Positions 6,045 through 37,662 of a DNA stretch of 43,566 nucleotides are shown here, one piece after another. Source of the DNA: a virus. Position numbers and translations under genes: made by a program. Within the stretch, counting starts at the first letter, position 1; every line of letters begins with the position of its first letter. Location: IMG/VR virus record IMGVR_UViG_3300046809_000182, positions 1 to 43,566 of that record; one strand, 5' to 3'. The notes beneath the pieces are model-generated. The model worked only from the letters and a program-made list of their open reading frames with translations. It was not told where the DNA came from and ran no database searches.

Positions 6045-6046
6045 CC

Positions 6047-6117: not shown

Positions 6118-6159
6118 ACTAAGGTCTCCATATAGGGCCTTCTATATAGGGGGTTGTAT

Positions 6160-20200: not shown

Positions 20201-21259
20201 TTCTATGGCACTGCCGGCGAAGGCATCCTCACCGTGGATGAAATGGCCGCTCTCGGCGGCCCTTCGGGCTTTGCTGCGCTTCGGGCGATGCTCGGTGGCA
20301 AGGGCGGTGACCAGGGCGACGATGGCCACTTCAAGAGTGGCGGCATCCTCGGTTCGGTCGGTCACTTCTTCGGCTCCATCGGATCCGGAATCGGTGATCT
20401 GGCCAGCTTCGCCAAGAGGATCGTTCAGGGCGGTCTTCGGACCGTTGCCAATGAGATGCTGCGACCTATCCTCAACGGTGTCGGATCCATCATCCCCGGT
20501 GACTCCGAGCTGAAGCGTCTCCTTGTCGGGATTCCCAATCACATGATTGATGGCGTCCTCGGCTTCTTCGGTGCCGAAGACAAGAAGGCGAATGCCCGGG
20601 CTACGGCCGGCATGTCGCCGGACCTTGCAGGATGGATCACCACGGCCGAAGGCCTTACCGGTGTCGGTGCTGATTGGACTGCGAGCCTTGCTCAGCTCAT
20701 CAAGATGGAGTCCGGCGGGAATCCCCGCGCCATCAACAATTGGGACAGCAACGCACAGCACGGTGACCCGTCTCGGGGTCTGATGCAGACCATCATGGCG
20801 ACGTTTCAGGCCTACCGCCTGAAGTCTCTCCCCAATGACATCTATGACCCCGTTGCGAACATCGTTGCCGGCATCCGGTACATCCTTTCTCGCTACGGCT
20901 CGATCTCCAGTGTGCCAGGAATCAAGAATCTGGCCAACGGCGGATCGTACGTCGGATATGCCACCGGGACGGACAATGCAACGCCGGGATGGTCTTGGGT
21001 CGGCGAGAACGGCCCTGAGCTTCGGTACATGGGTGGCGGGGAGTCGATCCTCAGCCACAAGGACAGCGTCAATGCCGTCAGGGCTCTCAATGCTCAGTCG
21101 GCCCTCGGGCTCTCTCGGCAGCCTCAGGCTGCCCCCGTCATCAATGTTGATGTGACAGTCGAACTCGATGGAGAGCGCCTTGACAAGCGCGTTGACGTGA
21201 AGATCGATCGCAACAATGACTCGCTTGCCAGAATCCTGACCGGAGGGAGAACTCAGTAA
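17207..21259 (+). CDS. Tape measure protein with lytic transglycosylase domain, 1350 aa
   Basis: Sets tail length and is delivered into the host. The N-terminal ~200 residues are Ala-rich helical; the TMP core is at ~250-470; a hydrophobic segment (S-L-I-I-I-G-I-A-A-L-I-V-G-F) is at ~580. Residues ~678-912 contain about eight W-L-W/Y-x-x-x-x-x-P-x-F repeats, spaced mostly 19 (sometimes 26) residues. The C-terminal SLT-like domain has candidate catalytic E1168 (K-M-E-S-G-G-N-P) and G-L-M-Q-T. The predicted tail is near 200 nm at the usual ~1.5 angstrom per residue (estimate). ATG 17207 follows AAGAGGTG. Confidence 0.95.
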   Translation: MAGNGSARSAGVAYIDLALGDTKALVEGITRTVTAMAAAAQAEMAKAFTFGGDTSSLTAVVEAATTAAEEAGKAVSEALATAGETGTRSLQDSITTGVQTAAQAAATELTSDLAAGAEIAAQQMALMLGQAQLHMPLDQIGVHAATEGARIGTTLGNSVSEGINHSTGSWASFAIPELQRYASRAQSIVGNAFTQAGHDGGEGMMKTFSEFGKGITYSVGSWGIGYAIGNSITTAVSSALSYVKSAVLDFNSEMQSANISFGTLLGSADQAKKMIGDIKQFALTTPFQFQNTVEYSQRLLALGINAKDIIPDLTALGDAVSALGGDPATLNGVVTAFGEMQSIGELSMVHLRQLEIRGIPALKILASEYGVSTSEMKKMISTGTVMSDVALPKLIDGLEHGTKTTKAYGGEMAEQSKTFKGAMSNISDGVTQFAAAGFRPIFDSLNRLAVRAGDFITKGGLENLAPTVASHVASALGSVSHFFGELFRYLAPAAPVIKDIIDNLIRFSILKQIFEALGPTLLVLAQALGAIGHNQLAAKVIADLVEGFIMLKAAQEAWNIVMAITNAVMDANPISLIIIGIAALIVGFVALYQHSETFRNIIASTGAFFGLIWHGILVAFNFVKDGILAGYHWIADGLSSVFHSDQVQGGLKFLGVAFHEFMSVATTAIHAVATVAVWLWKNVIEPVVQGIWFALRLLTVIVFTVLVTPFVIAYHLLEPLIMGLWHHVFKPVFDWIADGAKWLWNNALHPVFTWISGLFTGKLTKEIKALWQDYAMPAFRGIGDAANWLWKNALEPTFHGIGKVFSWLYDWVIRPWFDSLVATFRGIEVIAKWLWKNVFDPVFHGIGTVASWLWDNVLHPVFSGIGTAAKWLYENAIKPAFDSFTHAMKDLGHWASWLYDVAIKPVFNLIGRIIDDVLKGIKSGFKTAVDGISSIWHSLVDILKGPLNFIVDTVYTHGIREVWDFIADKVGIPQLPPAPHFAEGGIIPGPASAGDWIPFYGTAGEGILTVDEMAALGGPSGFAALRAMLGGKGGDQGDDGHFKSGGILGSVGHFFGSIGSGIGDLASFAKRIVQGGLRTVANEMLRPILNGVGSIIPGDSELKRLLVGIPNHMIDGVLGFFGAEDKKANARATAGMSPDLAGWITTAEGLTGVGADWTASLAQLIKMESGGNPRAINNWDSNAQHGDPSRGLMQTIMATFQAYRLKSLPNDIYDPVANIVAGIRYILSRYGSISSVPGIKNLANGGSYVGYATGTDNATPGWSWVGENGPELRYMGGGESILSHKDSVNAVRALNAQSALGLSRQPQAAPVINVDVTVELDGERLDKRVDVKIDRNNDSLARILTGGRTQ

Positions 21260-22591
21260 ATGGCTCTCGCCATCTCGGGGACTCCCTCCCCGGATTTTGC
21301 CTTCGTCTCCCTGTCAGTCTCCGGACTGACAGGGTATGACGCGGTTGCAATTCAGCGAACGAATCCTGACGGTTCTCAGGTCATCATCCGGAACGCCAAC
21401 TACGTTCTTACTGGCGGAGCCGACACCTTTGCATGCTCGGACATCGAGGCCCCCCTAGGGGCCGCAGTCACATACACGGCCATTGGCGCCATGTATACGA
21501 CTCGGAACCTGGTCCTGAATCCGAGTCTCACAACCGATCTCTCTAACACTCAGGACTACTCCAGTGTTACCCGGGCATGGATCAACACGGACGGCAAGTA
21601 TGGGCCGTCATGCGTGCAGCACACGAATACGGCTACTGCTCTTGCCGGTACGACATGGACTATCCCGACTGTCACCGGGATCACGGGGGCTTTCCAAGTC
21701 TCATGTTGGGTGAAGCTGCCTGCTAGCGGTCCGACCACCCTTAACCTGATTTGCCGAAGTGGCACCACTACGGTCAAGAGCGCGGCGATCACTCCGCTAC
21801 CGCCGGCTGGCACGTGGACTCGGGTCACTACAAGTTTCTCCCTGGTCTCGACCGACACAATCGACAGAATCGGCGTTTCGTCCAACGCCACATCCGGAAC
21901 CGTCTGGTGGGCAGATGCCGCCATGGCGGAAGTCAGCCCCATCACGCACAACTACGGGGATGGGTCATTCTCCGGCTGGTCATGGGACGGCACTTCAGAC
22001 GCTTCCGCGTCCCGGACCAGCGTCACGACAACGGCTCAGGCCACGTCGTCTCCGATCACCATTTCGGTTGCAGCCGGAACCGGCTGGCTCAAGAACATCA
22101 CTCAGCCGGCGCTCAATACGGAAGTATCCGTTGAATCGGTGCAGGACGTGAAGAGGCCTACTCGATCGCAGACCTATACCGTCATCGGCCGAAAGAATCC
22201 GGTGGTCGTCTCGGACGTCCGAGGCGGAAGACAGGGATCTCTCACCCTGATGACCACGAATTCCACGGACCTGCAATCAGTCAGGGCGCTCCTGGCGCCC
22301 GGATCCGTCCTCTTCTTTCAGGCGACTCCGGCAGACGGATTCGATGATCTGTACTTCGCTGCGGGAGACGTGACGGAGAAGCGACCGGCGGGGGTCTCTA
22401 CGGACCCAACGCGTCTATGGCAGATCGATTTTATCGAAGTCGATTCTCCCTCCGGCGCTGCCAACGGGCTGCCGAATAACTCCTACACACAGGTTGTGTC
22501 CTTCGGCACCTATCAGGCGGTTCTCACGAACCGGTCGACCTATCTCGATGTCCTCAATACGCCTTACGGAAGTGGCCCGGGAGGTATCTGA
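21260..22591 (+). CDS. Minor tail protein, distal-tail-like, 443 aa
   Basis: Directly abuts the tape-measure stop. The centre carries N-L-V-L-N-P-S-L and W-W-A-D-A-A-M, hallmarks of a carbohydrate-binding jelly-roll module. The C-terminal half (Q-T-Y-T-V-I-G-R-K-N-P-V-V-V-S-D-V-R-G-G-R-Q-G-S) fits siphovirus distal tail proteins. It probably forms the baseplate hub ring with a glycan-binding insertion. Confidence 0.78.
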   Translation: MALAISGTPSPDFAFVSLSVSGLTGYDAVAIQRTNPDGSQVIIRNANYVLTGGADTFACSDIEAPLGAAVTYTAIGAMYTTRNLVLNPSLTTDLSNTQDYSSVTRAWINTDGKYGPSCVQHTNTATALAGTTWTIPTVTGITGAFQVSCWVKLPASGPTTLNLICRSGTTTVKSAAITPLPPAGTWTRVTTSFSLVSTDTIDRIGVSSNATSGTVWWADAAMAEVSPITHNYGDGSFSGWSWDGTSDASASRTSVTTTAQATSSPITISVAAGTGWLKNITQPALNTEVSVESVQDVKRPTRSQTYTVIGRKNPVVVSDVRGGRQGSLTLMTTNSTDLQSVRALLAPGSVLFFQATPADGFDDLYFAAGDVTEKRPAGVSTDPTRLWQIDFIEVDSPSGAANGLPNNSYTQVVSFGTYQAVLTNRSTYLDVLNTPYGSGPGGI

Positions 22592-23790
22592 TGCAGAGCG
22601 TTTCAGCTCGGTTTCTGGAAGCCCTCCGGGGTTCGTACGTCTCCACCCCTACGGCAGACCTCTGGTATAGCAGGGCTCTTGTCGCCTCGAATCTACCGAT
22701 CGTTGACGGCTCTATTACGGTGGACCGGACCTCGAAAACTCGACGGTCCGGCACCATCACAATTGGTGACCCCACCTTCTTCCCGCTCTATGCCAACTCT
22801 CCTCTTGCGCCGTACGGCGCGGAGCTGAATATCAAGTGGGGCATAGTCTTCCCTGACGGGACGATAGAGCGGATCAGCCTCGGATGGTTCAGAATTCAGG
22901 ACGTGTCTCAGGAGACTGCCCCCGGGCAGGGCTCCGGAGGCCTTCCGATCGTCACCTTCCTCGATCGTTCTCAGGCAGTCTCGGACGCCTCATTCCTTGA
23001 TCCGATCGACCGGGGAGGATGGGCCGTCAAGAGCCTTCTGACGCACCTGATTCAGGATGTTGTCCCTTATGCCAGCGTTACGTTTGACCCGAGCCTGACG
23101 GATGGCGTAGTGCCTGGCGGAGTCGTCTTTGACTCGGCTCGATGGGATGCCGTCTCATCCTGTGCCGGCTACCTCAATGCCGATGCCTACTTTGATGTCA
23201 ACGGCAATGCTGCCGTTGTCCCGGTGCCGTCGCTAACTCAGTCCACTCCATCAAGTGCAGCCGTCTGGACCATGGACGCAAGCACTGATGCCGCGGTAGC
23301 GGCCGGAGCCAGCCAAAGCGGCGTCCTGGTCTCTGCGAAGCGAACTGTGAGCCGAGCTGGCGTCTACAACTGTGTCAGCGTCTACGGCGCTTCTACGGGC
23401 TCTGGGAGCCCGCCTACCGGCTACGCATGCGATACCGATCCCCGGAGTCCTACGTATTTCGGCCCTGCGCCGAACGCGGGGAATCCAGCTCCTAGCAGCG
23501 CCTTCGGCGCTCAGCTATATCGGTATCAGAACAATCTCTTGACGACTAACGCCATGTGTGCCGCGGCGGCTCAGACTCAGCTCTCTAACTTCTTGGGCCT
23601 TGCCCGATCCCTGTCCTTCACCGTGTGCCCGAACCCGGCTCTCGAAGCCGGAGACATCATTCAGGTGATCTATCCCGATGGGAAGAAGGAGCTGCATCTT
23701 CTGGACTCGTTCACGATTCCTCTTGGGCCTTCGGCCCAGTTCTCCGGCTCCACTCGGACACTCACTTATCAGCTCTCGGGAGGTACGTAA
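22591..23790 (+). CDS. Minor tail protein (DUF5047-like), 399 aa
   Basis: The N-terminus S-A-R-F-L-E-A-L-R-G-S-Y and I-V-D-G-S-I-T-V-D-R-T-S-K-T-R-R-S-G resembles DUF5047 proteins of Streptomyces phages; the family name is from memory and needs a profile search. It likely belongs to the baseplate or tail hub. It overlaps the preceding gene by one base (TGATG) and the following one by one base. Confidence 0.72.
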   Translation: MQSVSARFLEALRGSYVSTPTADLWYSRALVASNLPIVDGSITVDRTSKTRRSGTITIGDPTFFPLYANSPLAPYGAELNIKWGIVFPDGTIERISLGWFRIQDVSQETAPGQGSGGLPIVTFLDRSQAVSDASFLDPIDRGGWAVKSLLTHLIQDVVPYASVTFDPSLTDGVVPGGVVFDSARWDAVSSCAGYLNADAYFDVNGNAAVVPVPSLTQSTPSSAAVWTMDASTDAAVAAGASQSGVLVSAKRTVSRAGVYNCVSVYGASTGSGSPPTGYACDTDPRSPTYFGPAPNAGNPAPSSAFGAQLYRYQNNLLTTNAMCAAAAQTQLSNFLGLARSLSFTVCPNPALEAGDIIQVIYPDGKKELHLLDSFTIPLGPSAQFSGSTRTLTYQLSGGT

Positions 23791-24095
23791 TCAGCGACAG
23801 CCTCAGGCGCCTCTCTGGCGCCATTGCCAAGAGCCCCCAGGCTTCTCCCGCCATGTCCGGCATGGCGCAGGCTCTCAAGGCCTACAGCGCCACGTTTCAG
23901 GGCACTGAGGCCGTTGATTCCGGCCTCTCTCGAATCACCATCGGCGGGCAGACTTTCCGGTATGTTCCGAGGCTTTCGAATGCCTGGTCTTCCCCGCCTT
24001 CGGTGGGGACGACTCTTCTTGTGGCTTCCATTAACGGGAGTCTTCTCATCTTCGGCGCCCAGGTGGGCGACACATCAAAGGCGGTAGGACCCTAA
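23790..24095 (+). CDS. Small tail protein, 101 aa, apparent AUC start
   Basis: The frame is open and protein-like (S-D-S-L-R-R-L-S-G-A-I-A-K-S, then R-I-T-I-G-G-Q-T-F-R-Y-V-P-R-L). It ends in a 1-nt overlap with the next ATG. The best ribosome-binding site, GGGAGG at 23778-23783, points to ATC at 23790-23792, exactly where a TAATG-type overlap would place ATG. The only later ATG is 23853, without a good site. So it either initiates at AUC or carries a start-codon mutation. Beta-rich; probably tail-tip. Confidence 0.65.
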   Translation: MSDSLRRLSGAIAKSPQASPAMSGMAQALKAYSATFQGTEAVDSGLSRITIGGQTFRYVPRLSNAWSSPPSVGTTLLVASINGSLLIFGAQVGDTSKAVGP

Positions 24096-24469
24096 TGACT
24101 GACTGGACTCCAGTTAGCGACTTCGACAACTTTGATCCGCCTATGCCGGGCTGGCTCGATCCGAACTGGCCTTACCCGGACTATGTCCTGACCGGCATCG
24201 AGCCGTCAGTTTCGGGCATCCCTGATGGGAATCCGAACGTGCTGAGCGTGCGCCTCGGGCGCGTAGTCGCTCAGGGGACGATCGTCGGAACGTTCATGGT
24301 CCGCACCTTTGAGGGCTGGCTTCTGGACAACGTCTTTCCGCACAACTCCTATTCTCCGGGCGACTTCATCTATCTCCTGGTGTGCGGGCAGTGGTGCATT
24401 GACATGGGCCAGCACTCCTATCTTCCGCCCGTTCCTCCGTTGCCGGCTGGTGCCGCGCTTCCTCAGTAA
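24095..24469 (+). CDS. Hypothetical minor tail protein, 124 aa
   Basis: No named family. Aromatic and proline-rich N-terminus (D-F-D-N-F-D-P-P-M-P-G-W-L-D-P-N-W-P), then beta-rich sequence with V-L-S-V-R-L-G-R-V-V-A-Q-G-T-I-V-G-T. The C-terminus is Pro-rich. It sits between tail-tip and receptor-binding candidates and is coupled to its upstream neighbour by TAATG. A tail-tip attachment role is inferred from position only. Confidence 0.65.
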   Translation: MTDWTPVSDFDNFDPPMPGWLDPNWPYPDYVLTGIEPSVSGIPDGNPNVLSVRLGRVVAQGTIVGTFMVRTFEGWLLDNVFPHNSYSPGDFIYLLVCGQWCIDMGQHSYLPPVPPLPAGAALPQ

Positions 24470-24478
24470 GGGGGTTGA

Positions 24479-25135
24479 ATGTCCTCGAATACGGCCAAGG
24501 CGGGATTGACGTATCCCGCTCTGAGCGACCCCCCGAATGTTCCGTCGAATCTCCAGACGCTAGCCGGCCAGCTAGACGGCATCGTGATTCCGAAGTATGC
24601 GTCGGCAACCGCGATGAATGCCGCGAATCCGTCGCCTACTGGTGGCGACATGTGCTATCGGACTGACCTCAGGGCTTACCTCATGTACGACGCGACCGCG
24701 TCGGCATGGATGACTGCCGCCTACGGCGCATGGACTTCGTTCACTCCGACGTGGACTGCCGCAACTACCAATCCGAGTCTCGGTAACGGGACCCTGACTT
24801 CTCGATGGTCGAGAGTTGGCAGGACGATCAATTGGAGCGGTTATTTCGCGGTTGGCACCACCAGCACCGGAGGTTCCGGCGCCTGGCAGATGTCGATTCC
24901 CGTTCCTCAGGTGTCCACGACTGTTCCGTTCGTTGGGTCTGCGAACTATACGAACGTAGGCGACAACTATTACGTGGGCATCTGTGAGCTTCTGCCCGGA
25001 GCCTCGAACATTGTGTTCACGGTCAAGACTGGCACGTCGTCAACCGCCTTTGGCCGGGTGACCACGTCCATTCCGGTAACGGCATCGACCAATACTCAGA
25101 TTTCGTGGTCGCTGACCTACGAAGCCGCATCCTAA
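24479..25135 (+). CDS. Probable receptor-binding / tail fibre protein, 218 aa
   Basis: The N-terminus (S-S-N-T-A-K-A-G-L-T-Y-P) and the A-Y-G-A-W-T-S-F-T-P-T-W-T-A unit followed by T-N-P-S-L-G-N-G-T-L-T-S-R-W-S-R-V-G resemble C-terminal fibre domains of Streptomyces phages and prophages. It is Thr/Ser/Gly/Trp-rich and beta-dominated with no enzymatic motif. It is the last large tail gene, the usual place for host-range determinants. GGGGG lies upstream of ATG 24479. Confidence 0.72.
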   Translation: MSSNTAKAGLTYPALSDPPNVPSNLQTLAGQLDGIVIPKYASATAMNAANPSPTGGDMCYRTDLRAYLMYDATASAWMTAAYGAWTSFTPTWTAATTNPSLGNGTLTSRWSRVGRTINWSGYFAVGTTSTGGSGAWQMSIPVPQVSTTVPFVGSANYTNVGDNYYVGICELLPGASNIVFTVKTGTSSTAFGRVTTSIPVTASTNTQISWSLTYEAAS

Positions 25136-25148
25136 GCAAAGGAGCAAA

Positions 25149-25517
25149 ATGACTTCTTACATCTCTTTCCCCGATCTCATCGGCCTGGTGACCTCTGGTG
25201 TCACCCTGCACAACATTCTGCGGTTTGCCGCAACGAAGCTCTCTGCGGTTGCCAAGGAGGTTGAGTCCGGCTCCGTCCCGGAGCTTGTGAAGGAAGCCGA
25301 AACGGCTCTTGCCTTCGCGAAGGAGCATGATCCGAAGCTGGTCAATGCTGTCGAGACTGAGGCAGCGAAGCTGAAGGATGAGGCCCTGGCGGAGATCAAC
25401 AAGGCTCGGCATGCTGCTGCTGAGGTTCTGCGGAACCTTGCTGCTGACGTTGAGCGCCTGGCCGGCGCTGAGCCGGCTCCCGTCGTGACCGATCCGGCTC
25501 CGCCGGCCGGAGCGTGA
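25149..25517 (+). CDS. Hypothetical helical protein, 122 aa
   Basis: After an N-terminal hydrophobic helix (I-S-F-P-D-L-I-G-L-V), the rest is charged amphipathic helix (E-L-V-K-E-A-E-T-A-L, A-K-L-K-D-E-A-L-A-E-I-N-K) and a Pro/Ala tail. ATG 25149 follows AAAGGAG. The position between the fibre and membrane protein suggests a lysis or tail accessory role, but no family is recognised. Confidence 0.65.
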   Translation: MTSYISFPDLIGLVTSGVTLHNILRFAATKLSAVAKEVESGSVPELVKEAETALAFAKEHDPKLVNAVETEAAKLKDEALAEINKARHAAAEVLRNLAADVERLAGAEPAPVVTDPAPPAGA

Positions 25518-25521
25518 CCCC

Positions 25522-25797
25522 GTGGGTGATGATGACCGAGTGATCATCACGCCCCGGGACATGTATGACGTGCTGACGCTCATGAGGGCTGATCTCCAGA
25601 GGGTCATCCTCGGACTCGATCATGTCCTAGCCGACACTCAGGACCATGAAGCCAGGATCCGCGCCATAGAGAGCGCGGACTACGTGACCGAAGACGCTCT
25701 CCGGGAGCGATCCAACAGAGGTCTTGTTGTGGCCAGCACCGCGGCGACGATCGTCTCTACCGTTGCGGCCGTGGTTGCAGTCATCATCACCCGGTAA
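25522..25797 (+). CDS. Holin-like membrane protein, 91 aa
   Basis: It has a helical charged N-terminal domain and one C-terminal transmembrane segment (G-L-V-V-A-S-T-A-A-T-I-V-S-T-V-A-A-V-V), ending with Arg. This layout fits small phage membrane proteins often annotated as holins. It is the last late gene before the bidirectional terminator. GTG 25522 begins 5 nt after the upstream stop with no strong ribosome-binding site, so translation is probably coupled. Without another holin candidate it is the best partner for the endolysin. Confidence 0.6.
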   Translation: MGDDDRVIITPRDMYDVLTLMRADLQRVILGLDHVLADTQDHEARIRAIESADYVTEDALRERSNRGLVVASTAATIVSTVAAVVAVIITR

Positions 25798-25815
25798 GCG
25801 AAGACGCAAGACAGA

Positions 25816-25841
25816 AGCCCCCTGCCATCAGGCAGGGGGCT
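25816..25841. terminator. Bidirectional terminator, copy A
   Basis: 11-bp perfect stem AGCCCCCTGCC / GGCAGGGGGCT with an ATCA loop. It lies between convergent genes (late operon ending 25797, leftward DUF397 gene ending 25858). The same 24-nt hairpin core recurs at 27650-27673. Confidence 0.85.
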
Positions 25842-25857
25842 CTTCGTCGTTTGGCGG

Positions 25858-26046
25858 TCAGACCGGGAACTCTCCGGCCTTCACAGCGTCAACGAACGCG
25901 GCCCATCCCTCTGGCGAGAACGCCAGTCGGGGGCCGTCAGGGTCCTTCGAGTCTCGTACCTTGCCGGGAGTGGCGTCATCCACCTCGACGCAGTCCCCGC
26001 CGGATCCGTTGCTGTAAGTGGACTTACGCCACTTTTCCTCTTCCAT
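25858..26046 (-). CDS. DUF397 protein, 62 aa
   Basis: W-R-K-S-T-Y-S-N-G-S-G-G-D-C-V-E-V and V-R-D-S-K-D-P-D-G-P are diagnostic of DUF397, a small family abundant in Streptomyces and nearly always beside an XRE/DUF5753 regulator. The W-A-A-F-V-D-A-V-K C-terminus is also typical. GTG or ATG choice is not an issue: ATG 26046 lies 23 nt inside the XRE gene end, so it is translated with it. It may act as partner or antagonist of the regulator (known pairing, mechanism uncertain). Confidence 0.92.
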   Translation of the reverse strand: MEEEKWRKSTYSNGSGGDCVEVDDATPGKVRDSKDPDGPRLAFSPEGWAAFVDAVKAGEFPV

Positions 26047-26845
26047 CGTGCTCCCTTGCCGCGCGCTCGACCCTTCGGATGGACTCTGCTGGCGGCAGCG
26101 CAGAGGCCCGAGCTAGATCGTAGGCCCCCGCGTAGCGCTGCACTATCGCCGGATCGTCAAGGAGCTGTCCTGAATGGACCGATTCGACGTACGCCGCCGG
26201 CGGCTCATCGAGGAAGCTCATCAGGGTCACTGAGCCGCCCATCATGGCGTGAGCGCCAGAGTCGAACGGTAACACCTGAAGGAGCGCCGTACCGGCGCGA
26301 ACGAGAGATGCCACGTGCCGGAGCTGATCAGCCATCACAGTTGAGCCGCCGATGGGCGGACGAAGGACGGCTTCACTCAAAATGATCCACAACAGGGGCC
26401 GTGTTGAGTCATCGAGGATCTTCGCTCGATCGAGTCGCGCGGCAACGGCCGCGCTGATCTGGTCGTCCCCATCCCACGGACGTGCCGCCCTGATGACGGC
26501 CTCTGCGTAGCCGGCCGTCTGCATCAGTCCGGGGACCAGGTCCCCGCTGTACTTGCTGATCGTCACGGCTCTGGCTTCAAGAGCGGCAGTGGCCGCGAAG
26601 TAGTCCGCGTGCTTGGATGCCGTGGTCATGGGCCACATGCGTTCGAAGAAGCCATCAGTCTGGAAGACCTCATCGAGCCGCTTGGAGAGATCTTCCTGCG
26701 GCCGGCGGGCCGCGGACTCGATCTGACCGATGTAGGCACCGCTCACGAAGACTCGACTCCCGAGATCGGCCTGAGTCAGGCCGGAGACCTCACGATGCCT
26801 GCGTAGCTCTCGGCCGAAGAAGGCCGCTGGACTCAGCTCACCCAT
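26024..26845 (-). CDS. XRE-family regulator with DUF5753 (WhiJ/Scr1-like), 273 aa
   Basis: The N-terminal HTH (F-G-R-E-L-R-R-H-R-E-V-S-G-L-T-Q-A-D-L-G, residues ~9-60) is followed by a DUF5753 domain with the usual Y-S-G-D-L-V-P-G-L-M-Q-T-A-G-Y-A segment and a C-terminal F-L-D-E-P-P-A-A-Y-V-E. ATG 26845 is preferred, but GTG 26851 or TTG 26854 are possible. Family members regulate development and secondary metabolism in Streptomyces. In the phage it is a cargo regulator, unlikely to be the immunity repressor because it has no operator copies nearby. Confidence 0.9.
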   Translation of the reverse strand: MGELSPAAFFGRELRRHREVSGLTQADLGSRVFVSGAYIGQIESAARRPQEDLSKRLDEVFQTDGFFERMWPMTTASKHADYFAATAALEARAVTISKYSGDLVPGLMQTAGYAEAVIRAARPWDGDDQISAAVAARLDRAKILDDSTRPLLWIILSEAVLRPPIGGSTVMADQLRHVASLVRAGTALLQVLPFDSGAHAMMGGSVTLMSFLDEPPAAYVESVHSGQLLDDPAIVQRYAGAYDLARASALPPAESIRRVERAAREHDGRGKVA

Positions 26846-26963
26846 GATCACCAATCCAACAGATCCCGTTGTTGTGCTGGTAGCTCTACACAGAGTAGCG
26901 GCATGAGCCGAAGATTGGGGGTGTCAGAGAGCACGACTCTTCCGGGACAGCGGGAGTGACGAA

Positions 26964-27320
26964 ATGTCAGAAGAAGTACAGACGCGCTTAGGCGCGATCG
27001 AGAGCGCACACCAGAGACTTGCCGAGCGTGCCGCGGAAGCGCTCGCGTCGGCCCTGAGGATGGCCGGCTTGCCGCCGCTGCCGTCCTTGGAGCCCCACAA
27101 CTTCCCGGCGACGGGGATGCTCGGTGGCGGACACGTCAACCTTGGCGGGGCTAACGCCCATGCCGTGATGGCCTACGCGGCATACATCTCCGAGGCTGCC
27201 GCTCGTAACGGCAGGCAGCTTCATGGATCGTCGCTCGACCCTCGGGCTGCCCTCACGATGCCCGAGCTTCGGCCGGCCACGTACGTCCTTCTCCCCGGGC
27301 CGGAGGCCAACGATGAGTGA
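26964..27320 (+). CDS. Hypothetical protein, 118 aa, divergent from the XRE regulator
   Basis: ATG 26964 follows GGGAG with 7-nt spacing. Helical Ala-rich N-terminal half (A-I-E-S-A-H-Q-R-L-A-E-R-A-A-E-A), then G-M-L-G-G-G-H-V-N-L-G-G-A-N-A. No known domain recognised. It is divergently transcribed from the XRE gene across a 118-bp gap and overlaps the next gene by 8 nt. The arrangement suggests control by the XRE protein and a prophage-expressed trait (inference). Confidence 0.72.
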   Translation: MSEEVQTRLGAIESAHQRLAERAAEALASALRMAGLPPLPSLEPHNFPATGMLGGGHVNLGGANAHAVMAYAAYISEAAARNGRQLHGSSLDPRAALTMPELRPATYVLLPGPEANDE

Positions 27321-27534
27321 GTTCCTTCGGTTCGGTGACGTGGTCGTGGACATCGAGACGCACGAAGTCCTCACCTACATGGACACGTCTTGTGGTCGGC
27401 GGATCGTCCGCCCGATGGGAGGCGGACGGGAAACCGAGAGGCACCCTGACTGCATCCGGAAGGCCACCCCTGAGGAGACGCTGCAAGCGCTGAAGCGCCT
27501 TCAGGACGCCAAAGCCGCCGCTGGCCTCAGCTAG
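27313..27534 (+). CDS. Hypothetical protein, 73 aa
   Basis: ATG 27313 overlaps the upstream stop by 8 nt (ATGAGTGA). Sequence runs F-L-R-F-G-D-V-V-V-D-I-E-T-H-E-V-L-T-Y-M-D and ends in a helix (P-E-E-T-L-Q-A-L-K-R-L-Q). No family recognised. Second gene of the small rightward operon in the terminator-bracketed cassette. Confidence 0.7.
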   Translation: MSEFLRFGDVVVDIETHEVLTYMDTSCGRRIVRPMGGGRETERHPDCIRKATPEETLQALKRLQDAKAAAGLS

Positions 27535-27546
27535 CGGCCCTATACG

Positions 27547-27584
27547 CCCCGGGGGCTGTTAAATGACCCTTCCGGCTCCCGGGG
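27547..27584 (+). terminator. Hairpin after the rightward cassette operon
   Basis: CCCCGGG (27547-27553) pairs with CCCGGGG (27578-27584), with further weaker inner pairs. It begins 13 bp after the stop of 27313-27534. No U tract. Confidence 0.55.
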
Positions 27585-27646
27585 TGCCACATGCGGTACA
27601 GTGGTCACGACATGGTGTGACGGATTGCCTCTGTTTCCACATGTGA

Positions 27647-27676
27647 CAAGCCCCCTGCCATCAGGCAGGGGGCTTG
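27647..27676. terminator. Bidirectional terminator, copy B
   Basis: 13-bp stem (arms 27647-27659 and 27664-27676) with an ATCA loop and TTTT on the plus side. Its core is identical to copy A at 25816-25841. It ends leftward transcription of the early arm (last gene 27693) and blocks rightward read-through. The 60 bp before it (27585-27646) hold two CCACATG repeats and no gene. Confidence 0.85.
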
Positions 27677-27692
27677 TTTTCGTTCAGGCAGA

Positions 27693-27845
27693 CTAGAAGG
27701 CTTCCGCCATTATCTCCCCGAAGGCCATAACGAAGGCCCTTCGGGTACTCTCGGGCATCTTCTCGTCAAAGGCGAAGCTGACCTCAATGAGCGTCTCATC
27801 ATCGCCTTCAACCTTCAGCTTGTCGTCACTCGGGATCAGCGCCAT
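27693..27845 (-). CDS. Hypothetical protein, 50 aa, last early gene
   Basis: ATG 27845 follows GGAAGGAG. Small acidic protein (D-D-E-T-L-I-E-V-S-F-A-F-D-E-K) with a C-terminal helix. It overlaps the upstream gene by 20 nt. No family recognised; it is the distal end of the early chain. Confidence 0.65.
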   Translation of the reverse strand: MALIPSDDKLKVEGDDETLIEVSFAFDEKMPESTRRAFVMAFGEIMAEAF

Positions 27846-28020
27846 CAGGCATCTCCTTCCACTCAACGTCTGCGTAGTAGATCGTTGCCTTGGCTCCGTC
27901 AGCTTCGATGGCCCTTGCATGTTCCTGGGCGGGGCGGAGAAGAGTGAATCGCTTGCCCGTAGGGCTGAGATAGCGCGTCTTGCCGCCCGAGCGGCGTACT
28001 CGGTAGATCCGCTCAGGCAT
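27826..28020 (-). CDS. Hypothetical protein, 64 aa
   Basis: ATG 28020 overlaps the upstream stop through ATGCCTGA. Begins M-P-E-R-I-Y-R-V-R-R-S-G-G-K-T-R-Y-L-S-P and contains Y-Y-A-D-V-E-W-K-E-M-P. The basic N-terminus could bind nucleic acid. Function unknown. Confidence 0.65.
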   Translation of the reverse strand: MPERIYRVRRSGGKTRYLSPTGKRFTLLRPAQEHARAIEADGAKATIYYADVEWKEMPDGADPE

Positions 28021-28582
28021 TTTGAATGATCCTCTCGTAGCAGATGAGATAGCCGATGGCGTCGATGATGGAGTCTCGATGGCCAGGAGTCCCGATGAGT
28101 CGAGAGAGCTTGAGTTGGACCATACCGACGGCCACATCAAGGGGAGCCACGTCCTTCCCGAAGGTTGCTGACCACTCCTTTGCAGTCCGCCTGAAATCGT
28201 CCGATGGATGGCCGTAGACGGCCTGTCGCTCCCCATTCCGAACGATCCTTGCCGCGGTCATCTCCGCCGGCTCAGTCTGGTCAGCATCGCCATGAAAGGT
28301 GATCTCAAGGCCAAGGGCCTTGGCGATCAGGTACTCAAGCCGAGAGCCTTCGGAGTCCTGCCATCCCGGAAGCATGAAGACCATGGACGCCTGAAGCATC
28401 ATCTTGATGTCGGCCCTCATATACTCCGGGATCTCTCGGTCCTGATCCCCCTCGAAGTTCTCGGCAGGGTTGAGGACGTGGAATCCCTGATGCCGAAGCG
28501 TCTTCGCCGTTGCGGCGAAGAGAGGATAGTTGAAGTCTGGCAGGCCCCTCATGGGGCCGGAGATGTAGATGGCATCGGTCAC
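28013..28582 (-). CDS. DUF4406-DUF6378 fusion protein, 189 aa
   Basis: Residues 1-~95 form a DUF4406 domain, related to nucleoside deoxyribosyltransferases: Y-I-S-G-P-M-R-G-L-P-D-F-N-Y, M-R-A-D-I-K-M-M-L-Q, M-L-P-G-W-Q-D-S-E-G-S. Residues ~105-185 match the phage DUF6378 pattern: E-R-Q-A-V-Y-G-H-P-S-D-D-F, later D-V-A-V-G-M-V-Q-L-K-L-S-R. GTG 28582 overlaps the upstream stop (GTGA). A role in nucleotide salvage or modification is plausible. Family names are from memory. Confidence 0.78.
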   Translation of the reverse strand: MTDAIYISGPMRGLPDFNYPLFAATAKTLRHQGFHVLNPAENFEGDQDREIPEYMRADIKMMLQASMVFMLPGWQDSEGSRLEYLIAKALGLEITFHGDADQTEPAEMTAARIVRNGERQAVYGHPSDDFRRTAKEWSATFGKDVAPLDVAVGMVQLKLSRLIGTPGHRDSIIDAIGYLICYERIIQNA

Positions 28583-28977
28583 TTCGGTACCGCCGTGACG
28601 TTCTCGATGATGTTGAGGGTAACCGGCTTGATGCCAGTGTCGACCTTGTCGTAGTCGCCTTCGGCGTTCTCGACCATCTTGTAATCCGCGCGGTAGAAGC
28701 TACGGCTGCCACGGCCATTCGGCTGCACCTTGACGCGTGTCTCCGTTTCCGCAGGACGCGTCTCGTTCTCTAGCGTCTTGTAATTCCAGTACACGCGCTC
28801 TGGCGGCTCCTGGCCCTCTTCGAGGCGGAGCCACTTCCAAGAGTCGTCAGCTCGATACGCCTCCCAGATGTCAACGACCGTAGCCTCTACGATCTCGCAG
28901 GATCGCCCAGACATCCGAGGATAGAAGACGGTATCCCCTACCCCATACTCGTTTCCGCGCCAGTCAGTCAGCTTCAC
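28579..28977 (-). CDS. Hypothetical protein, 132 aa
   Basis: GTG 28977 overlaps the upstream gene by GTGA, and its stop overlaps the next GTG. The N-terminal G-V-G-D-T-V-F-Y-P and V-E-A-T-V-V-D-I resemble a small SH3/KOW-like barrel. The rest is charged and aromatic. No catalytic motif. Function unknown. Confidence 0.68.
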   Translation of the reverse strand: MKLTDWRGNEYGVGDTVFYPRMSGRSCEIVEATVVDIWEAYRADDSWKWLRLEEGQEPPERVYWNYKTLENETRPAETETRVKVQPNGRGSRSFYRADYKMVENAEGDYDKVDTGIKPVTLNIIENVTAVPK

Positions 28978-29342
28978 GCGATAACCTCCGTCACTGGAAT
29001 GCCCACAGCGCGGGCAGCTTCTACGGTGTGCATGGTGCCGTTACTCTGGCCCGGCACGATGAAGGCGATACAGAGATCGGCGCCCTTCTGGACCATCTGG
29101 TAGTTGCGCAGGAAGCCGGCACACTTCCCGAACTGATTCCAGTCCGCGGGGTGCTTCTCCTGAATGATGTCCGGATGCATCTCACACCATTGCCGAGCCA
29201 GCCTGTCTGCGCCTTGAGGGCAGTCCCCGTGAACGATGGTGAAGGGCCTCTCAGGGTGAAGCTCGAAAGCCTCATACCAAAGAACCGACTCTAGCCAGGC
29301 TCGATCAGTCCACTTCCGGGAACCGGTGATGAGGAGTCTCAA
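28974..29342 (-). CDS. SLOG-family protein (DUF2493/YspA-like), 122 aa
   Basis: Rossmann-like nucleotide-binding protein. The N-terminus L-L-I-T-G-S-R-K-W-T-D, then H-G-D-C-P-Q-G-A-D-R-L-A and a late G-T-M-H-T-V-E-A-A glycine segment match the SLOG/YpsA-related group that senses or processes nucleotide ligands. TTG 29342 overlaps the upstream stop (TTGA). With the DUF4406-DUF6378 protein it suggests a nucleotide-metabolism cluster. Confidence 0.85.
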   Translation of the reverse strand: MRLLITGSRKWTDRAWLESVLWYEAFELHPERPFTIVHGDCPQGADRLARQWCEMHPDIIQEKHPADWNQFGKCAGFLRNYQMVQKGADLCIAFIVPGQSNGTMHTVEAARAVGIPVTEVIA

Positions 29343-29506
29343 AATCCCTCGACCATCGCTCGAAGCTCTTCCCGAACAACGTCACGAACCGCGCGCTCAA
29401 GCGCCTCGACCATCTCAGCCTGTCGATAAGCCTTGTCCCCATACCAGTTATCAAAGACCTCCCAGACCTTTGGGCTGATCTGGTAGTCGCTGCCTTCGAT
29501 GTTCAC
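29339..29506 (-). CDS. Small helical protein, 55 aa
   Basis: GTG 29506 overlaps the upstream stop (GTGA) and follows GGGAG; its TGA overlaps the TTG of the SLOG gene. Amphipathic and acidic, with a W-E-V-F-D-N-W-Y-G-D-K-A-Y segment and a helical E-M-V-E-A-L-E-R-A-V-R-D-V-V-R tail. Coupling on both sides supports it. Function unknown. Confidence 0.65.
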   Translation of the reverse strand: MNIEGSDYQISPKVWEVFDNWYGDKAYRQAEMVEALERAVRDVVREELRAMVEGF

Positions 29507-29679
29507 CGCGTCTCCCTTCGCTTGGCCTGTTCGACCTTGAGGAAGTGCGGGAAGTCCTCAAGCATCTCCTCATAGGTGTTAGTCCAGTGACTTGCGACGT
29601 GAAGAAAGCCCGGTTCTAGAAGGCGCCACTTATCGTCACGCTTCTCGATCTGAAATTTCCTCTTGTTCCTGGAGATCAC
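29503..29679 (-). CDS. Hypothetical protein, 58 aa
   Basis: GTG 29679 has GGAGGAG upstream and overlaps the stop of the 34-aa gene before it (GTGA). Sequence begins I-S-R-N-K-R-K-F-Q-I and contains W-R-L-L-E-P-G-F-L-H-V-A-S-H-W. Basic at both ends. No family recognised. Confidence 0.65.
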   Translation of the reverse strand: MISRNKRKFQIEKRDDKWRLLEPGFLHVASHWTNTYEEMLEDFPHFLKVEQAKRRETR

Positions 29680-29780
29680 CGCTTCAGCTCCTCCCATCTC
29701 TTCGCTATCCGCTTTAAGTTGGCGAGAACGCCCGGGGCAACGCCCCGGGCTTCCCACCTCTTGAAGAGCTGATCAGGCAT
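29676..29780 (-). CDS. Very small basic protein, 34 aa
   Basis: ATG 29780 overlaps the preceding stop through ATGCCTGA, and its TGA overlaps the next GTG (GTGA). Sequence begins M-P-D-Q-L-F-K-R-W-E and ends W-E-E-L-K-R. Rich in Arg/Lys. Supported by tight coupling on both sides; function unknown. Confidence 0.6.
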   Translation of the reverse strand: MPDQLFKRWEARGVAPGVLANLKRIAKRWEELKR

Positions 29781-29973
29781 TGTTGCGACGGCCGCCAATG
29801 GCGCCCATCAGACTGGAAGCCACCACGATCAGGCCGAACCACTTCCAGAACGAGAGGACCGACGGGAAGACCAGGTGCAGGATCTCGGCGAGTCCGGCAT
29901 CGATCCCGAAGACGATTGCCAGAACGAAGAGGATGCCGACACATGCAATACCGGCAGAAGTCTCGTGCTTCAA
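29773..29973 (-). CDS. Small membrane protein, 66 aa
   Basis: TTG 29973 has AAGGAG at 6-nt spacing. Two predicted transmembrane segments: G-I-A-C-V-G-I-L-F-V-L-A-I-V-F-G and W-F-G-L-I-V-V-A-S-S-L-M-G, ending R-R-N-N-A. As an early or lysogenic membrane protein it might serve superinfection exclusion, though nothing beyond topology supports this. Confidence 0.7.
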   Translation of the reverse strand: MKHETSAGIACVGILFVLAIVFGIDAGLAEILHLVFPSVLSFWKWFGLIVVASSLMGAIGGRRNNA

Positions 29974-29983
29974 GGTGTGCTCC

Positions 29984-30592
29984 TTATGCTGCGGCCGGCA
30001 GCTTGCCGGCGGTACGGGAACCGGGGCCGTCGTGCTCCACGGCCAACCGGTTGATGTGCTCATTGATGCGCTGAGTCAGGCTGTCGATTGCCCGATCAAC
30101 CGCCTTCCGGGCGGCATCCGTCGGGAACTCTTCTCCGTCCCGGAACCGGCGCTGAAGCCGGAAGCGATCCTCAGCAGAGATCGATTCGAGAGCCGCATCG
30201 ATGTCCCAAAGAGCGATGCACACGTTCTCGAAGACGAGAAGCGAAGTCCGGTCATCCGGACCAGTGGGCACCGAAGTCTCTCGAAGAGAGAGATCCCAGT
30301 AGGCGTGAGAAAGAAGGCCTCGAACCTCTGCCGGAGTGTAGAGATAGCGGGCAGACCGAACGGTGTAGTCGTACCGCTCCCGAGAGGCGTAGGAACCCGC
30401 TACGCGGCCCATGAAGGCCGTGACAAGGCCGATGTTCTCCGGGAATCCCTCAAGCATCTCCGGATGCTCCACAAGAGCCGTTAGGGCTTCCTGAGACATG
30501 TCCTCGGCATCAATGCCGGGCCACTTCCGAGCCATGCCCTTGCCTACGCGGCGGGCAAGATCCTGGATGACTGACCAGTCAATATCCGTCAC
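29984..30592 (-). CDS. Sigma-factor-like protein (degenerate), 202 aa
   Basis: The N-terminal K-W-P-G-I-D-A-E-D-M-S-Q-E-A-L-T-A-L-V matches the D-A-E-D-x-x-Q-E core of sigma-70 region 2. A C-terminal L-E-S-I-S-A-E-D-R-F-R-L-Q-R-R-F segment recalls region 4 but lacks a clear helix-turn-helix. GTG 30592 overlaps the preceding stop (GTGA). It may redirect host RNA polymerase, for example to late genes that lack obvious vegetative promoters. This is inference. Confidence 0.55.
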   Translation of the reverse strand: MTDIDWSVIQDLARRVGKGMARKWPGIDAEDMSQEALTALVEHPEMLEGFPENIGLVTAFMGRVAGSYASRERYDYTVRSARYLYTPAEVRGLLSHAYWDLSLRETSVPTGPDDRTSLLVFENVCIALWDIDAALESISAEDRFRLQRRFRDGEEFPTDAARKAVDRAIDSLTQRINEHINRLAVEHDGPGSRTAGKLPAAA

Positions 30593-31095
30593 TGGCTCAC
30601 CTTGGTGACGTAGTTCTCGAAGACCGGGATAGAAACCCCGTCAGCGCCGACGGCAAGGTAGGCGCGATCCCCGTCAGAATCAGGCTTAGAGCCCACTGCC
30701 TCAATCTCGAAGATATCTCCGGAGTAGTCCTTCACCTTGTCGCCGACAGCAAACTTCGGCTCGATGATGCGGACGTAAGAAGCCGTCTTCTCGAAGTTGT
30801 TCACCTTCTCCAGTCCGGGACACTTCCCGCCGGGAAGGACGTAGCCCACAAAGGCCGCCCCAGCGTGGGAGATGGGCTCGCTAATGATCTGGTATTCCGT
30901 GCCCGTGTATGCGCCCCTGTACTTGCGCCCGGTCCATGCCTCTGTCATAGCAGTCTCCTTCGGGGGGATGTAGTTGAGATCGAGCTGAGCACTCACGAGA
31001 TGCCCGTAATGATTGAAGGTCTTGACCTCTCGGATTTTCCAGAGCCTTCCAGCGAAGTAGAAGGGGCGGTTCAAATCGACTCCGAGACTCGTCAT
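30589..31095 (-). CDS. Hypothetical protein, 168 aa, with internal start
   Basis: ATG 31095 overlaps the preceding stop (ATGA). An internal ATG at 30948 has a near-ideal AAGGAG site, so a 119-residue form may also be made. The N-terminal 50 residues (F-Y-F-A-G-R-L-W-K-I-R-E-V) and the C-terminal part (F-A-V-G-D-K-V-K-D-Y-S-G-D-I-F-E-I-E) both look like small beta barrels, the latter KOW/SH3-like. No family recognised. Confidence 0.65.
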   Translation of the reverse strand: MTSLGVDLNRPFYFAGRLWKIREVKTFNHYGHLVSAQLDLNYIPPKETAMTEAWTGRKYRGAYTGTEYQIISEPISHAGAAFVGYVLPGGKCPGLEKVNNFEKTASYVRIIEPKFAVGDKVKDYSGDIFEIEAVGSKPDSDGDRAYLAVGADGVSIPVFENYVTKVSQ

Positions 31096-31853
31096 CGGTA
31101 CTCCTTCCCCTCGACCACAAAGCGGCCGTTGTTGATGTAGATGACCTCAGGCCGCACTTCGCGGCCAGTGACATGAAGAAGGCCAAATCCCTGCTGCCAG
31201 TTGGCAGCGCCAGTAGCCAGATAGCCGGCCTTCTTGATGTCCATGAGGTTTCCGACTTCCATTGCCCAGAGTCGGCGAGTACGGCCGTTGTAGCCGAAAT
31301 CCTTCGGCTCAAGTCCGCATCGGTGCGTGTGACCGATGACCACGCTCTTGCCCGTCTTGTTGACCAGGCTCATTGCCGTGCCCGCCGGCCTCGGAGAGAT
31401 GGACGGCCCCTTGTGGCCGTGAGTGCTGATCCATCCCGGAGCGATGTCATGAATCAGTGGAAGCGTCTCGATGCCGTATTCGGCATGCTTCAGCATCACG
31501 TCATAGTCAATGCCTTCGTAGCCGTAGAGCCACGGGGCATAACGCTTCACCGCGTCAGAGACGCGCAGATCATGATTGCCAAGGTGTCGCTTCCACCAGC
31601 CGTCGTAGACGGCCCTCACGCGCTCCTGAATCCCGTGAGCGCTCTTCAGGTCCTTCGTCAGGCTGGTGTCGAACTCGGAAGCCGTTCCCTTGCTCCATCG
31701 AGACGGAGGAGAGAAGTCCATCCAATCCCCGATGTCCACGATGCCCGCCGGCTGATAGTCGGCGATGAAGGAGATGAGGGCGTTGACCGCCTTCGTGTCG
31801 TGCTCAGGGATCTGAGTGTCCGGCCAAATGAGAATGGTCTCAGTCTTCGTCAC
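31092..31853 (-). CDS. Metallophosphoesterase, 253 aa
   Basis: Calcineurin-like phosphoesterase. Metal-binding motifs in order: W-P-D-T-Q-I-P (D-x-Q variant of DxH, ~10), I-V-D-I-G-D-W-M-D (~40), L-G-N-H-D (~90), H-G-H and I-G-H-T-H (~175). The set is complete apart from Q in place of the first H, which is common in phage enzymes. GTG 31853 overlaps the preceding stop. A nuclease or phosphatase role in replication or recombination is likely. Confidence 0.88.
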   Translation of the reverse strand: MTKTETILIWPDTQIPEHDTKAVNALISFIADYQPAGIVDIGDWMDFSPPSRWSKGTASEFDTSLTKDLKSAHGIQERVRAVYDGWWKRHLGNHDLRVSDAVKRYAPWLYGYEGIDYDVMLKHAEYGIETLPLIHDIAPGWISTHGHKGPSISPRPAGTAMSLVNKTGKSVVIGHTHRCGLEPKDFGYNGRTRRLWAMEVGNLMDIKKAGYLATGAANWQQGFGLLHVTGREVRPEVIYINNGRFVVEGKEYR

Positions 31854-32170
31854 TTGGCATCACGCGCCTCGATGGCGTCCGTGAAGTCAAGGTGACCGAT
31901 CTGAAGACTCAACTCAACGCAGTTAGGTGCCGCCGAGTTCCGGAAGGCAACAAGCCTGCCGCCCATCGTGGCGAAGTAACCGTTATCGCCCATATCCCGA
32001 ACAAGGTTCGAGATCACCTCATCAAGGCTCTCGTAGGTGGCGGGCCCCTTGAGGAGCGGCCACTGATTCAGTGCGTAGATGTAGGTGAGCTGATCAAGGA
32101 AGATGTCGAGGTTCCATGCTGCGTCTTCCGTCGTCAGCCCCTTCAGTGATGGAAACTTCTTCTGAGGCAA
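31850..32170 (-). CDS. Hypothetical protein, 106 aa
   Basis: TTG 32170 has AAGGAG four to five nt upstream. Helical N-terminal half (W-N-L-D-I-F-L-D-Q-L-T-Y-I-Y-A-L) and a beta C-terminal half. No family recognised. First gene after operator copy 5 and its hairpin. Confidence 0.66.
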   Translation of the reverse strand: MPQKKFPSLKGLTTEDAAWNLDIFLDQLTYIYALNQWPLLKGPATYESLDEVISNLVRDMGDNGYFATMGGRLVAFRNSAAPNCVELSLQIGHLDFTDAIEARDAK

Positions 32171-32184
32171 TGTGCTCCTTGTCC

Positions 32185-32210
32185 GGTGGCGGTCCCGGAG
32201 GACCGCCACC
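32185..32210 (-). terminator. Hairpin beside operator copy 5
   Basis: 11-bp stem (arms 32185-32195 and 32200-32210) with a 4-nt loop, 8 bp downstream of the operator on the leftward transcript. No U tract. Same operator-then-hairpin layout as at 3782-3823 and 35182-35222. Confidence 0.7.
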
Positions 32211-32217
32211 TTGCTTG

Positions 32218-32234
32218 TCTAGCGTTAAGTTTCG
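32218..32234 (-). promoter_or_regulatory. Operator copy 5 (degenerate)
   Basis: TCTAGCGTTAAGTTTCG, four mismatches to the 17-bp repeat but with the GCGTTAAG core intact. The -35-like hexamer would be TAGACA and no -10 is seen, so a stoperator role is more likely than a promoter. Confidence 0.55.
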
Positions 32235-32242
32235 CGTCATGG

Positions 32243-32887
32243 CTAAAGACCGAGCTTGCTCCTCAAGGCATCGGGCCCGTTCTGAAGTACGAAGCTGTTC
32301 ACGTCATGCCCTTGGGGCATCAGGATCGTTCGAGCCGCGCTCACGTGGCTCTCAATCTTGGCGGCAAGATCCTGGCCTTCCCCGGAGTCATCAGCGTCCG
32401 CCAGGACGAAGACCGTGTCATAGCCGCGGAAGCATCGAGCCCACCACTTTTGCCAGGCTTTCACCCCGGGGATTCCTACGGCAGGGATGCCGGCCTGATT
32501 GGCGGTGATGGCGTCCATCTCGCCCTCACAGATGGCGATGAATGGAGAATCGATGTCCAGAGCCGGAGTGTTGAACATCCTCCGGCCGATGCCGGCCGGC
32601 CACTGATACTTGTCGTTGTGGATGCCCTTGCAGTCTTCGTGACTGATGCACCGGAAGGAAGCGCCGGTTACTCCGGCGCGAGTCCGATACGGGATGACGA
32701 GCCGTCCCGAATACTGCTCATGACTCGGATAGGGGCTTGCGACTACGCCGATTTGAAAGGATCGAGCGCTGTCCTCGGACAGGCCCCGTTTCCTGAGATA
32801 GGCTACCGCGCCTTCGTGACTTGGCAGAGCCGCCGCGTAGTCCGCCGTTGCTGAACTGTAGAACTCGATCAGCGAACTCGACAGCAC
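32243..32887 (-). CDS. DNA primase, TOPRIM part, 214 aa
   Basis: Catalytic half of a DnaG-like primase. N-terminal helical region (E-G-A-V-A-Y-L-R-K-R-G-L-S) precedes the TOPRIM signature I-A-I-C-E-G-E-M-D-A-I (catalytic E) and V-L-A-D-A-D-D-S-G-E-G (D-x-D). The only start, GTG 32887, has a distant ribosome-binding site and lies inside the zinc-domain ORF in another frame. The two are either separate coupled genes or joined by frameshift. Confidence 0.85.
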   Translation of the reverse strand: MLSSSLIEFYSSATADYAAALPSHEGAVAYLRKRGLSEDSARSFQIGVVASPYPSHEQYSGRLVIPYRTRAGVTGASFRCISHEDCKGIHNDKYQWPAGIGRRMFNTPALDIDSPFIAICEGEMDAITANQAGIPAVGIPGVKAWQKWWARCFRGYDTVFVLADADDSGEGQDLAAKIESHVSAARTILMPQGHDVNSFVLQNGPDALRSKLGL

Positions 32888-33122
32888 TAGGGAAATCGCA
32901 CTTCTCCTCCCTCATGATGATGGCCCATGAGTCGCCGGAGGCGTCACAAGCGAAGCACTGGAAGTAGTTCACTTCGAGGCTGATGGATGCTGATGCATTG
33001 CGCTCCCCGTGGAATGGGCACCGCATCTTCTGCCATCCGAACTCTCTTGCCGGCACTTCCGCATCCGGGTAGTAGTGCCTGATTACATCGAGGATCGGCG
33101 GCTTAGTCGGCGACTCGCTCAA
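32718..33122 (-). CDS. DNA primase, zinc-binding (CHC2) part, about 134 aa
   Basis: N-terminal half of the primase. It has V-I-R-H-Y-Y-P-D-A, then C-P-F-H-G-E and F-Q-C-F-A-C-D, a C-x2-H...C-x2-C zinc ribbon that recognises template. It keeps primase character to about F-P-S-A-V-E-F-A-D-R-V-L, after which the residues look random (Arg/Gly/Ser-rich), while the other frame takes up the primase pattern. TTG 33122 is an uncertain start; a longer frame reaches 33188. Confidence 0.78.
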   Translation of the reverse strand: MSESPTKPPILDVIRHYYPDAEVPAREFGWQKMRCPFHGERNASASISLEVNYFQCFACDASGDSWAIIMREEKCDFPSAVEFADRVLQFSNGGLRGGSAKSRRRGSLSQETGPVRGQRSILSNRRSRKPLSES

Positions 33123-37608: not shown

Positions 37609-37662
37609 GTGTCTCGACCCTTCATCACTAGCCGGCGGTCCATGGCGATGTGCCTGTTGCCA

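Follow-up and report, generated by a model that had tools for sequence, protein, structure and literature searches.

A putative terminator-bounded cargo slot in a Streptomycetaceae temperate phage and the WhiJ-BldB-type cassette it carries

How does a 1.8-kb group of genes of chromosomal Streptomyces type come to lie between two identical hairpins in a phage genome, and what might it do there? The window (the whole stretch of 43,566 bp analysed, an IMG/VR virus record) has genes for the large terminase, major head and tape measure proteins, together with one for a serine integrase at 37937-39931 (phrog_95, with a DNA-invertase match), and therefore represents a temperate tailed phage, whose hosts are Streptomycetaceae or Streptomyces-like bacteria. 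Based on the comparisons described below, we consider it reasonably probable that the cassette occupies a cargo slot between the terminators of the late and early operons and that it is an intact, chromosomal-type WhiJ-BldB-type switch with an effector operon of two genes, r118 and r73.

The phage and its cassette

Late genes run rightward as far as 25797, while early genes, including those for a DnaB-like helicase, an exonuclease and a DUF4406-DUF6378 protein, run leftward and end at 27693, and the cassette is located at the junction of these two arms. At the DNA level, no relatives of the region 20000-34000 were found in the phage collection. The features of the region are as follows.

25522..25797, plus strand: TM91, the last late-operon gene (91 aa, hydrophobic C-terminus), with orthologues in 4/4 relatives at the same place adjoining hairpin 1
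25816..25841, strand not assigned: hairpin 1, likely the late-operon terminator, starting 18 nt past the TM91 stop; on the opposite strand it follows the DUF397 stop by 16 nt
25858..26046, minus strand: DUF397 (BldB-type) gene, 62 aa, pI 4.5 (PF04149, E 7.5e-24, 84.1 bits, cut-off 24)
26024..26854, minus strand: XRE HTH + DUF5753 (WhiJ-type) gene (PF19054, E 1.3e-51; HTH_31, PF13560, E 1.9e-11)
26857..26874, strand not assigned: a CAACA-N8-TGTTG dyad lying between the start and the -10 element of the XRE gene, a predicted operator picked by eye from a 31-row alignment without a significance test
26892..26897, minus strand: TACTCT, the -10 element predicted for the XRE-DUF397 operon, with a CTA..CT block conserved in the 31-row alignment
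26964..27320, plus strand: r118, 118 aa, 12.3 kDa, pI 5.7, motif ALxLAGLPPLxSL...GxHVxLGG
27313..27534, plus strand: r73, 73 aa, 8.2 kDa, pI 6.1, overlapping the end of r118
27646..27677, strand not assigned: hairpin 2, likely the early-operon terminator, also distal to r73; the last early ORF stops 15 nt away
27693..27845, minus strand: last early-operon ORF, 50 aa
28013..28582, minus strand: DUF4406-DUF6378 early gene, 189 aa, the marker used for finding relatives

An earlier note on this DNA had described a leftward XRE/DUF5753-DUF397 pair and two divergent rightward genes, all of chromosomal Streptomyces type, and this description proved accurate. Two parts of a WhiJ/BldB locus are present: PF13560 and PF19054 both score above cut-off in the XRE protein, and the DUF397 gene lies downstream of the XRE gene and overlaps it. 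Where an AbaA HATPase or IosA gene would be the neighbour, the divergent genes belong to other families, which are typical partners in chromosomes. The likely XRE start is ATG 26845, although the ORF reaches to TTG 26854. For r118 and r73, searches against Pfam and PHROG gave zero matches, and the AlphaFold model of r118 alone (mean pLDDT 53.5) was not usable.

Several further features of the record were noted. The fusion of DUF4406 (nucleoside deoxyribosyltransferase-like) to DUF6378 in 28013-28582 is a good marker for this phage group. At 4667-4713, a 24-nt AT-rich hairpin (TATTTATTAACTAAATAATAAATA) is directly followed by a GC-rich one (ACCAACCCCCTTAAGGGGGTTGGT), which is striking in a GC-rich phage. 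A tRNA-Met (CAT) gene lies at 6046-6119, just upstream of the packaging genes, and at the very end of the record (43156-43527) there is a 123-aa ORF whose sole Pfam match is helix-hairpin-helix HHH_6 (E 1.1e-24).

The module in host chromosomes and its proposed working

Among 200 sampled genomes of the host family, 20 contained r118 homologues and 78 contained r73 homologues. An XRE gene of this family was present within ~1.5 kb at 26/30 r118 loci and 18/20 r73 loci among the matches listed (4/30 and 2/20, respectively, had none nearby), compared to 1/108 same-size control windows drawn from 18 arbitrary 20-kb stretches. The XRE protein itself was matched in 87/297 genomes at E<=1e-70, and at 28 of the best 30 XRE loci r118 and/or r73 homologues were divergent from the XRE gene; of the other two, one (L101) has a HATPase gene and one (L106) neither. 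The family HMMs for r118 and r73 were iterated on these same loci, so that their small E-values are not independent, but plain tblastn agrees with the HMM results for loci L016-L065. One chromosomal locus (L018, genome G198) shows the same four-gene order as the window, whereas at three others (L017, L021, L023) the XRE gene is on the same strand as r118, and the arrangement is thus not universal. Overall, the gene neighbourhoods show that DUF397<-XRE / r118->r73 is an intact module that is widespread in Streptomycetaceae chromosomes. The closest chromosomal XRE among the matches listed is only 59% identical, so no recent donor was seen in the genome sample.

Genome G198 (contig C4) also appears to have expanded these families, with 11 matches each to r118 and r73; the inspected copies L018, L037, L043 and L053 have r118 and r73 in tandem beside an XRE gene.

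The predicted promoter and operator derive from an upstream alignment of 31 XRE genes, namely 30 chromosomal ones and that of the window. A repeat search of the XRE-r118 intergenic region returned a single 7-nt direct repeat only. By analogy with WhiJ9/BldB9/iosA, the XRE protein would bind between its own -10 element and start codon, limit its own expression and control the divergent r118-r73 promoter, thereby switching r118-r73, and the DUF397 protein would tune this switch, perhaps together with BldB paralogues of the host. A predicted promoter of its own and a probable terminator at either end would let the prophage express the cassette separately from the lytic operons. An effect of the switch on development or antibiotic production of the lysogenic host is speculative. 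In the published WhiJ-BldB work (PMC10294661), BldB forms hetero-oligomers with the majority of its paralogues, and the bldB phenotype is reproduced when iosA and abaA6 are overexpressed together.

The interval in related phages

Relatives of the window phage were found via the DUF4406 protein and the late genes. This gave four loci, L003, L004, L005 and L007 (on the same contigs as L066, L068, L067 and L069, respectively), whose DUF4406-DUF6378 proteins are 83%, 78%, 67% and 80% identical to that of the window. A Kitasatospora mediocidica locus (L013) matches the early-gene marker as well as L003 does. Seven loci (L070-L076) that matched the 91-aa late protein, not the early-gene marker, were left out of the slot comparison; one of them (L074) also has a weak match to the late 399-aa tail protein and an integrase-like ORF in the corresponding region.

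In 4/4 relatives, two GC-rich hairpins bound the same interval, and within each relative their sequences are unlike each other. In the orientation of the window, hairpins 1 and 2 and the length of the slot between them are:

Window: AGCCCCCTGCCATCAGGCAGGGGGCT at both borders; 1804 nt
L003: GCCCCCTGCCTCATGGCAGGGGGC and ACCCCCAGCCATCAGGCTGGGGGT; 2558 nt
L004: GCCCCCGCCTTTCGGCGGGGGC and GCCCCCGGCCAACAGGCCGGGGGC; 2529 nt
L005: GGCCCCTCCTG..CAGGAGGGGCC and GCCCCCCGTCCTCAGGGACGGGGGGC; 963 nt
L007: GCCCCCGCCTTCCGGCGGGGGC and GCCCCCGGCCATCAGGCCGGGGGC; 2434 nt

Hairpin 1 starts 11-18 nt past the TM91 stop codon in 5/5 phages (11-15 nt in the four relatives), and in 4/5 a gap of 10-15 nt separates the end of hairpin 2 from the stop codon of the last early ORF; beside hairpin 2 of L007/L069, no last early ORF was found. 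Overall, 9/10 hairpins over the five phages lie within 10-18 nt of the end of their own flanking operon, and the last early ORFs of the relatives appear, by eye, unrelated. Because of these distances, each hairpin is most likely the terminator of the late or early operon it adjoins. Judged from the stems, bidirectional termination by both hairpins of the window is plausible; their T-tracts are weak, except rightward from 27677, and a simple terminator scan flagged the second hairpin only, in the rightward direction only.

The content of the interval differs between the phages. In L003, L004 and L007, the slot contains an XRE-DUF397 pair, which points leftward when viewed in the window's orientation, and a divergent HATPase gene, the WhiJ-BldB-AbaA combination; the two HATPase genes scanned, those of L003 and L004, both matched PF13581. 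The L005/L067 slot keeps both hairpins and contains other small genes, without XRE, DUF397, r118 or r73. One of these genes (L005:9136-9516) belongs to a family located near an XRE gene at 10/20 chromosomal loci at a score of at least 40 (12/20 at E<=1e-3), a looser link than that of r118 and r73. A 112-aa partner gene in L004 gave weak matches in 4/121 genomes, with an XRE gene at none of these four loci. In a 38-row tree, a single clade for the slot XREs of the window, L003, L004 and L007 is rejected (p-AU 0.00013), and the window XRE belongs to a starred set of 15 whose other members are 13 chromosomal proteins and the XRE of phage Success. Since the flanking early gene is 67-83% identical, this indicates that the module was replaced while the backbone stayed. 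Comparison of the sequences thus shows that the interval 25842-27645 is a cargo slot, shared by five phages and with at least three fillings.

Phages often carry toxin-antitoxin or conflict genes, and the cassette could be one of these, with r118/r73 or the DUF397 protein being toxic, the XRE-DUF397 pair controlling them, and prophage maintenance or superinfection exclusion as the outcome. The effectors do differ between homologous slots, as in conflict systems; DUF397-XRE has been proposed as a toxin-antitoxin pair (PMC2701414) and DUF397 has been linked to conflict systems (PMC7159879). We nevertheless regard this explanation as rather unlikely, since 14 DUF397 proteins of Streptomyces coelicolor were overexpressed without clear toxicity (PMC10364602), and PADLOC returned zero matches for DUF397, r118 and r73 and, for the XRE protein, weak matches over the N-terminal HTH region only.

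A second alternative, which we judge quite improbable, is that the XRE-DUF5753 protein serves this phage as its immunity repressor. In favour, there is a serine integrase gene, and among the part of the window's ORFs scanned with Pfam the XRE gene is the only clear repressor-like HTH gene (an ORF at 37126-37686 gave weak sigma-70 region 4 and TetR_N matches). However, this role becomes less likely because the pair coexists with annotated repressors elsewhere and the L005 slot has no XRE at all: the phages Ididsumtinwong and Darolandstone have XRE-DUF397 alongside separately annotated repressors, and in Samy another gene is named as putative immunity repressor (PMC11302927).

The two hairpins of the window show a sequence identity found in none of the four relatives. 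AGCCCCCTGCCATCAGGCAGGGGGCT occurs exactly at 25816-25841 and 27649-27674 (26 nt), and the duplication of the 24-nt core (25817-25840 and 27650-27673) at both borders, pointed out in the earlier note, is confirmed. Even when as many as 3 mismatches were allowed, the window contained no third copy, and 100 dinucleotide-preserving shuffles gave zero matches to the repeat. Fold z-scores against shuffles were -4.7, -4.7, -7.0 and -6.1 for both hairpins on both strands, and since the pair is palindromic it forms a direct and an inverted repeat simultaneously. The exact core was found in 0 stretches of the viral collection and in 0/101 host-family genomes; the hairpin being a common host terminator was rejected on the latter count.

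The same note took the identical hairpins for a footprint, left when recombination at a terminator brought in the cassette and duplicated that terminator. The exact 26-nt identity and the lack of the core in 101 host genomes would fit, but this is contradicted, and made most improbable, by the hairpin pairs of 4/4 relatives, which occupy these two positions yet differ in sequence within each pair. The note had itself named relatives that lack the cassette but retain both terminators as the result that would count against it, and L005 is such a relative. Further evidence against it is given by the loop ATCA of hairpin 2 (window orientation), which is also present in L003 and L007 and therefore looks inherited, as well as by the hairpin-1 stem common to the window and L003. 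The identity of the window hairpins is instead a local oddity, and the shared loop and stem would suit gene conversion as well as convergence of stems under constraint.

Relation to known systems and possible meaning

The XRE and DUF397 families and their pairing are already known. Within the open-licence literature searched, we found no description of r118-r73 as a recurrent XRE-DUF397 partner or of an exchangeable slot bounded by terminators, and no paper linking WhiJ-BldB loci with phages surfaced in open-licence full texts, judged mostly from listings. Streptomyces has many WhiJ-BldB loci of which few effectors have been studied, and r118-r73 is now defined as a recurrent putative effector pair. 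Phages carry intact WhiJ-BldB-type loci in what appears to be an exchangeable slot, and a prophage with versus without the 1.8-kb cassette offers a compact test system for the function of such loci, as well as a possible route for phage influence on multicellular development. As a tentative possibility, a Streptomycetaceae temperate-phage family could keep a terminator-bounded loading dock at the junction of late and early operons that is repeatedly loaded with complete WhiJ-BldB-effector switches of the hosts' developmental type; the phage DUF397 protein could then mix with host BldB paralogues, lysogeny would rewire sporulation or antibiotic production, and r118-r73 would be a new effector class.

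The closest parallels are the whiJ-bldB-abaA and iosA-whiJ9-bldB9 loci of Streptomyces (PMC10294661), where, as in the window, an XRE-type WhiJ gene and a DUF397 BldB paralogue adjoin an effector gene. In contrast to the whiJ-bldB loci described there, the module of the window is phage-borne and its effector is r118-r73 rather than the HATPase AbaA. IosA (15 kDa, pI 10.3) also differs from r118 and r73 when compared by stated size and charge. A regulatory site between the regulator promoter and start is demonstrated in the WhiJ9 system and predicted in the window; the WhiJ9 repeat consensus CGNNCTCAAC is absent from 26072-27802 even with one mismatch, and so missing from the XRE-r118 intergenic region. 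Across the whole window, this consensus with one mismatch has 69 matches versus 48 expected (the largest count in 100 shuffles was 66), possibly reflecting codon usage.

The XRE/DUF397 pairs of S. coelicolor, such as Scr1/Scr2 and SCO1979/1978, comprise the same two families with a DUF5753 C-terminus and are reported to act as pleiotropic regulators (PMC10364602). The window XRE matches the Sco1979 family (NCBIfam NF058600) below cut-off (126.8 vs 350 bits), and the window pair differs from the S. coelicolor pairs in that a phage carries it and that the effector operon divergent from it is defined. XRE-DUF397 pairing is known on plasmids too (PMC2701414).

In six other actinophages (Samy, Ididsumtinwong, Darolandstone, Picard, Success and PIS 136; loci L009-L012, L107 and L108), a regulator gene is followed by a small gene, mostly annotated as DUF397, and mostly accompanied by small divergent genes; compared to the window, the pairs occupy other positions, several near the integrase, and have other divergent genes. 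Phage records carry these families under annotations such as ‘DNA binding protein’. We did not find r118 in the phage collection, including actinophages with XRE-DUF397 pairs, and none of 15 pattern matches in viral contigs was confirmed; among the phages searched, this effector type is known in the window phage only. We do not claim kinship of r118 to Ididsumtinwong gp54 or Success gp5, for which the hhalign comparisons with the r118 family gave P-value 0.011 and probability 3.9 (gp54) and P-value 0.14 (gp5).

Morons of lambdoid phages are accessory gene units with their own promoter and terminator between phage operons. The earlier note had called the cassette moron-like, and apart from the insertion footprint this reading largely holds: the cassette is an accessory, hairpin-bounded unit of chromosomal Streptomyces type outside the lytic operons, which L005 lacks and in whose place L003, L004 and L007 have a different type, and a promoter and terminators of its own are suggested, from sequence alone, by the conserved -10 block and the flanking hairpins. 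Compared to lambdoid morons, the slot of the window probably has operon terminators on both sides already, and it holds a putative multi-gene switch.
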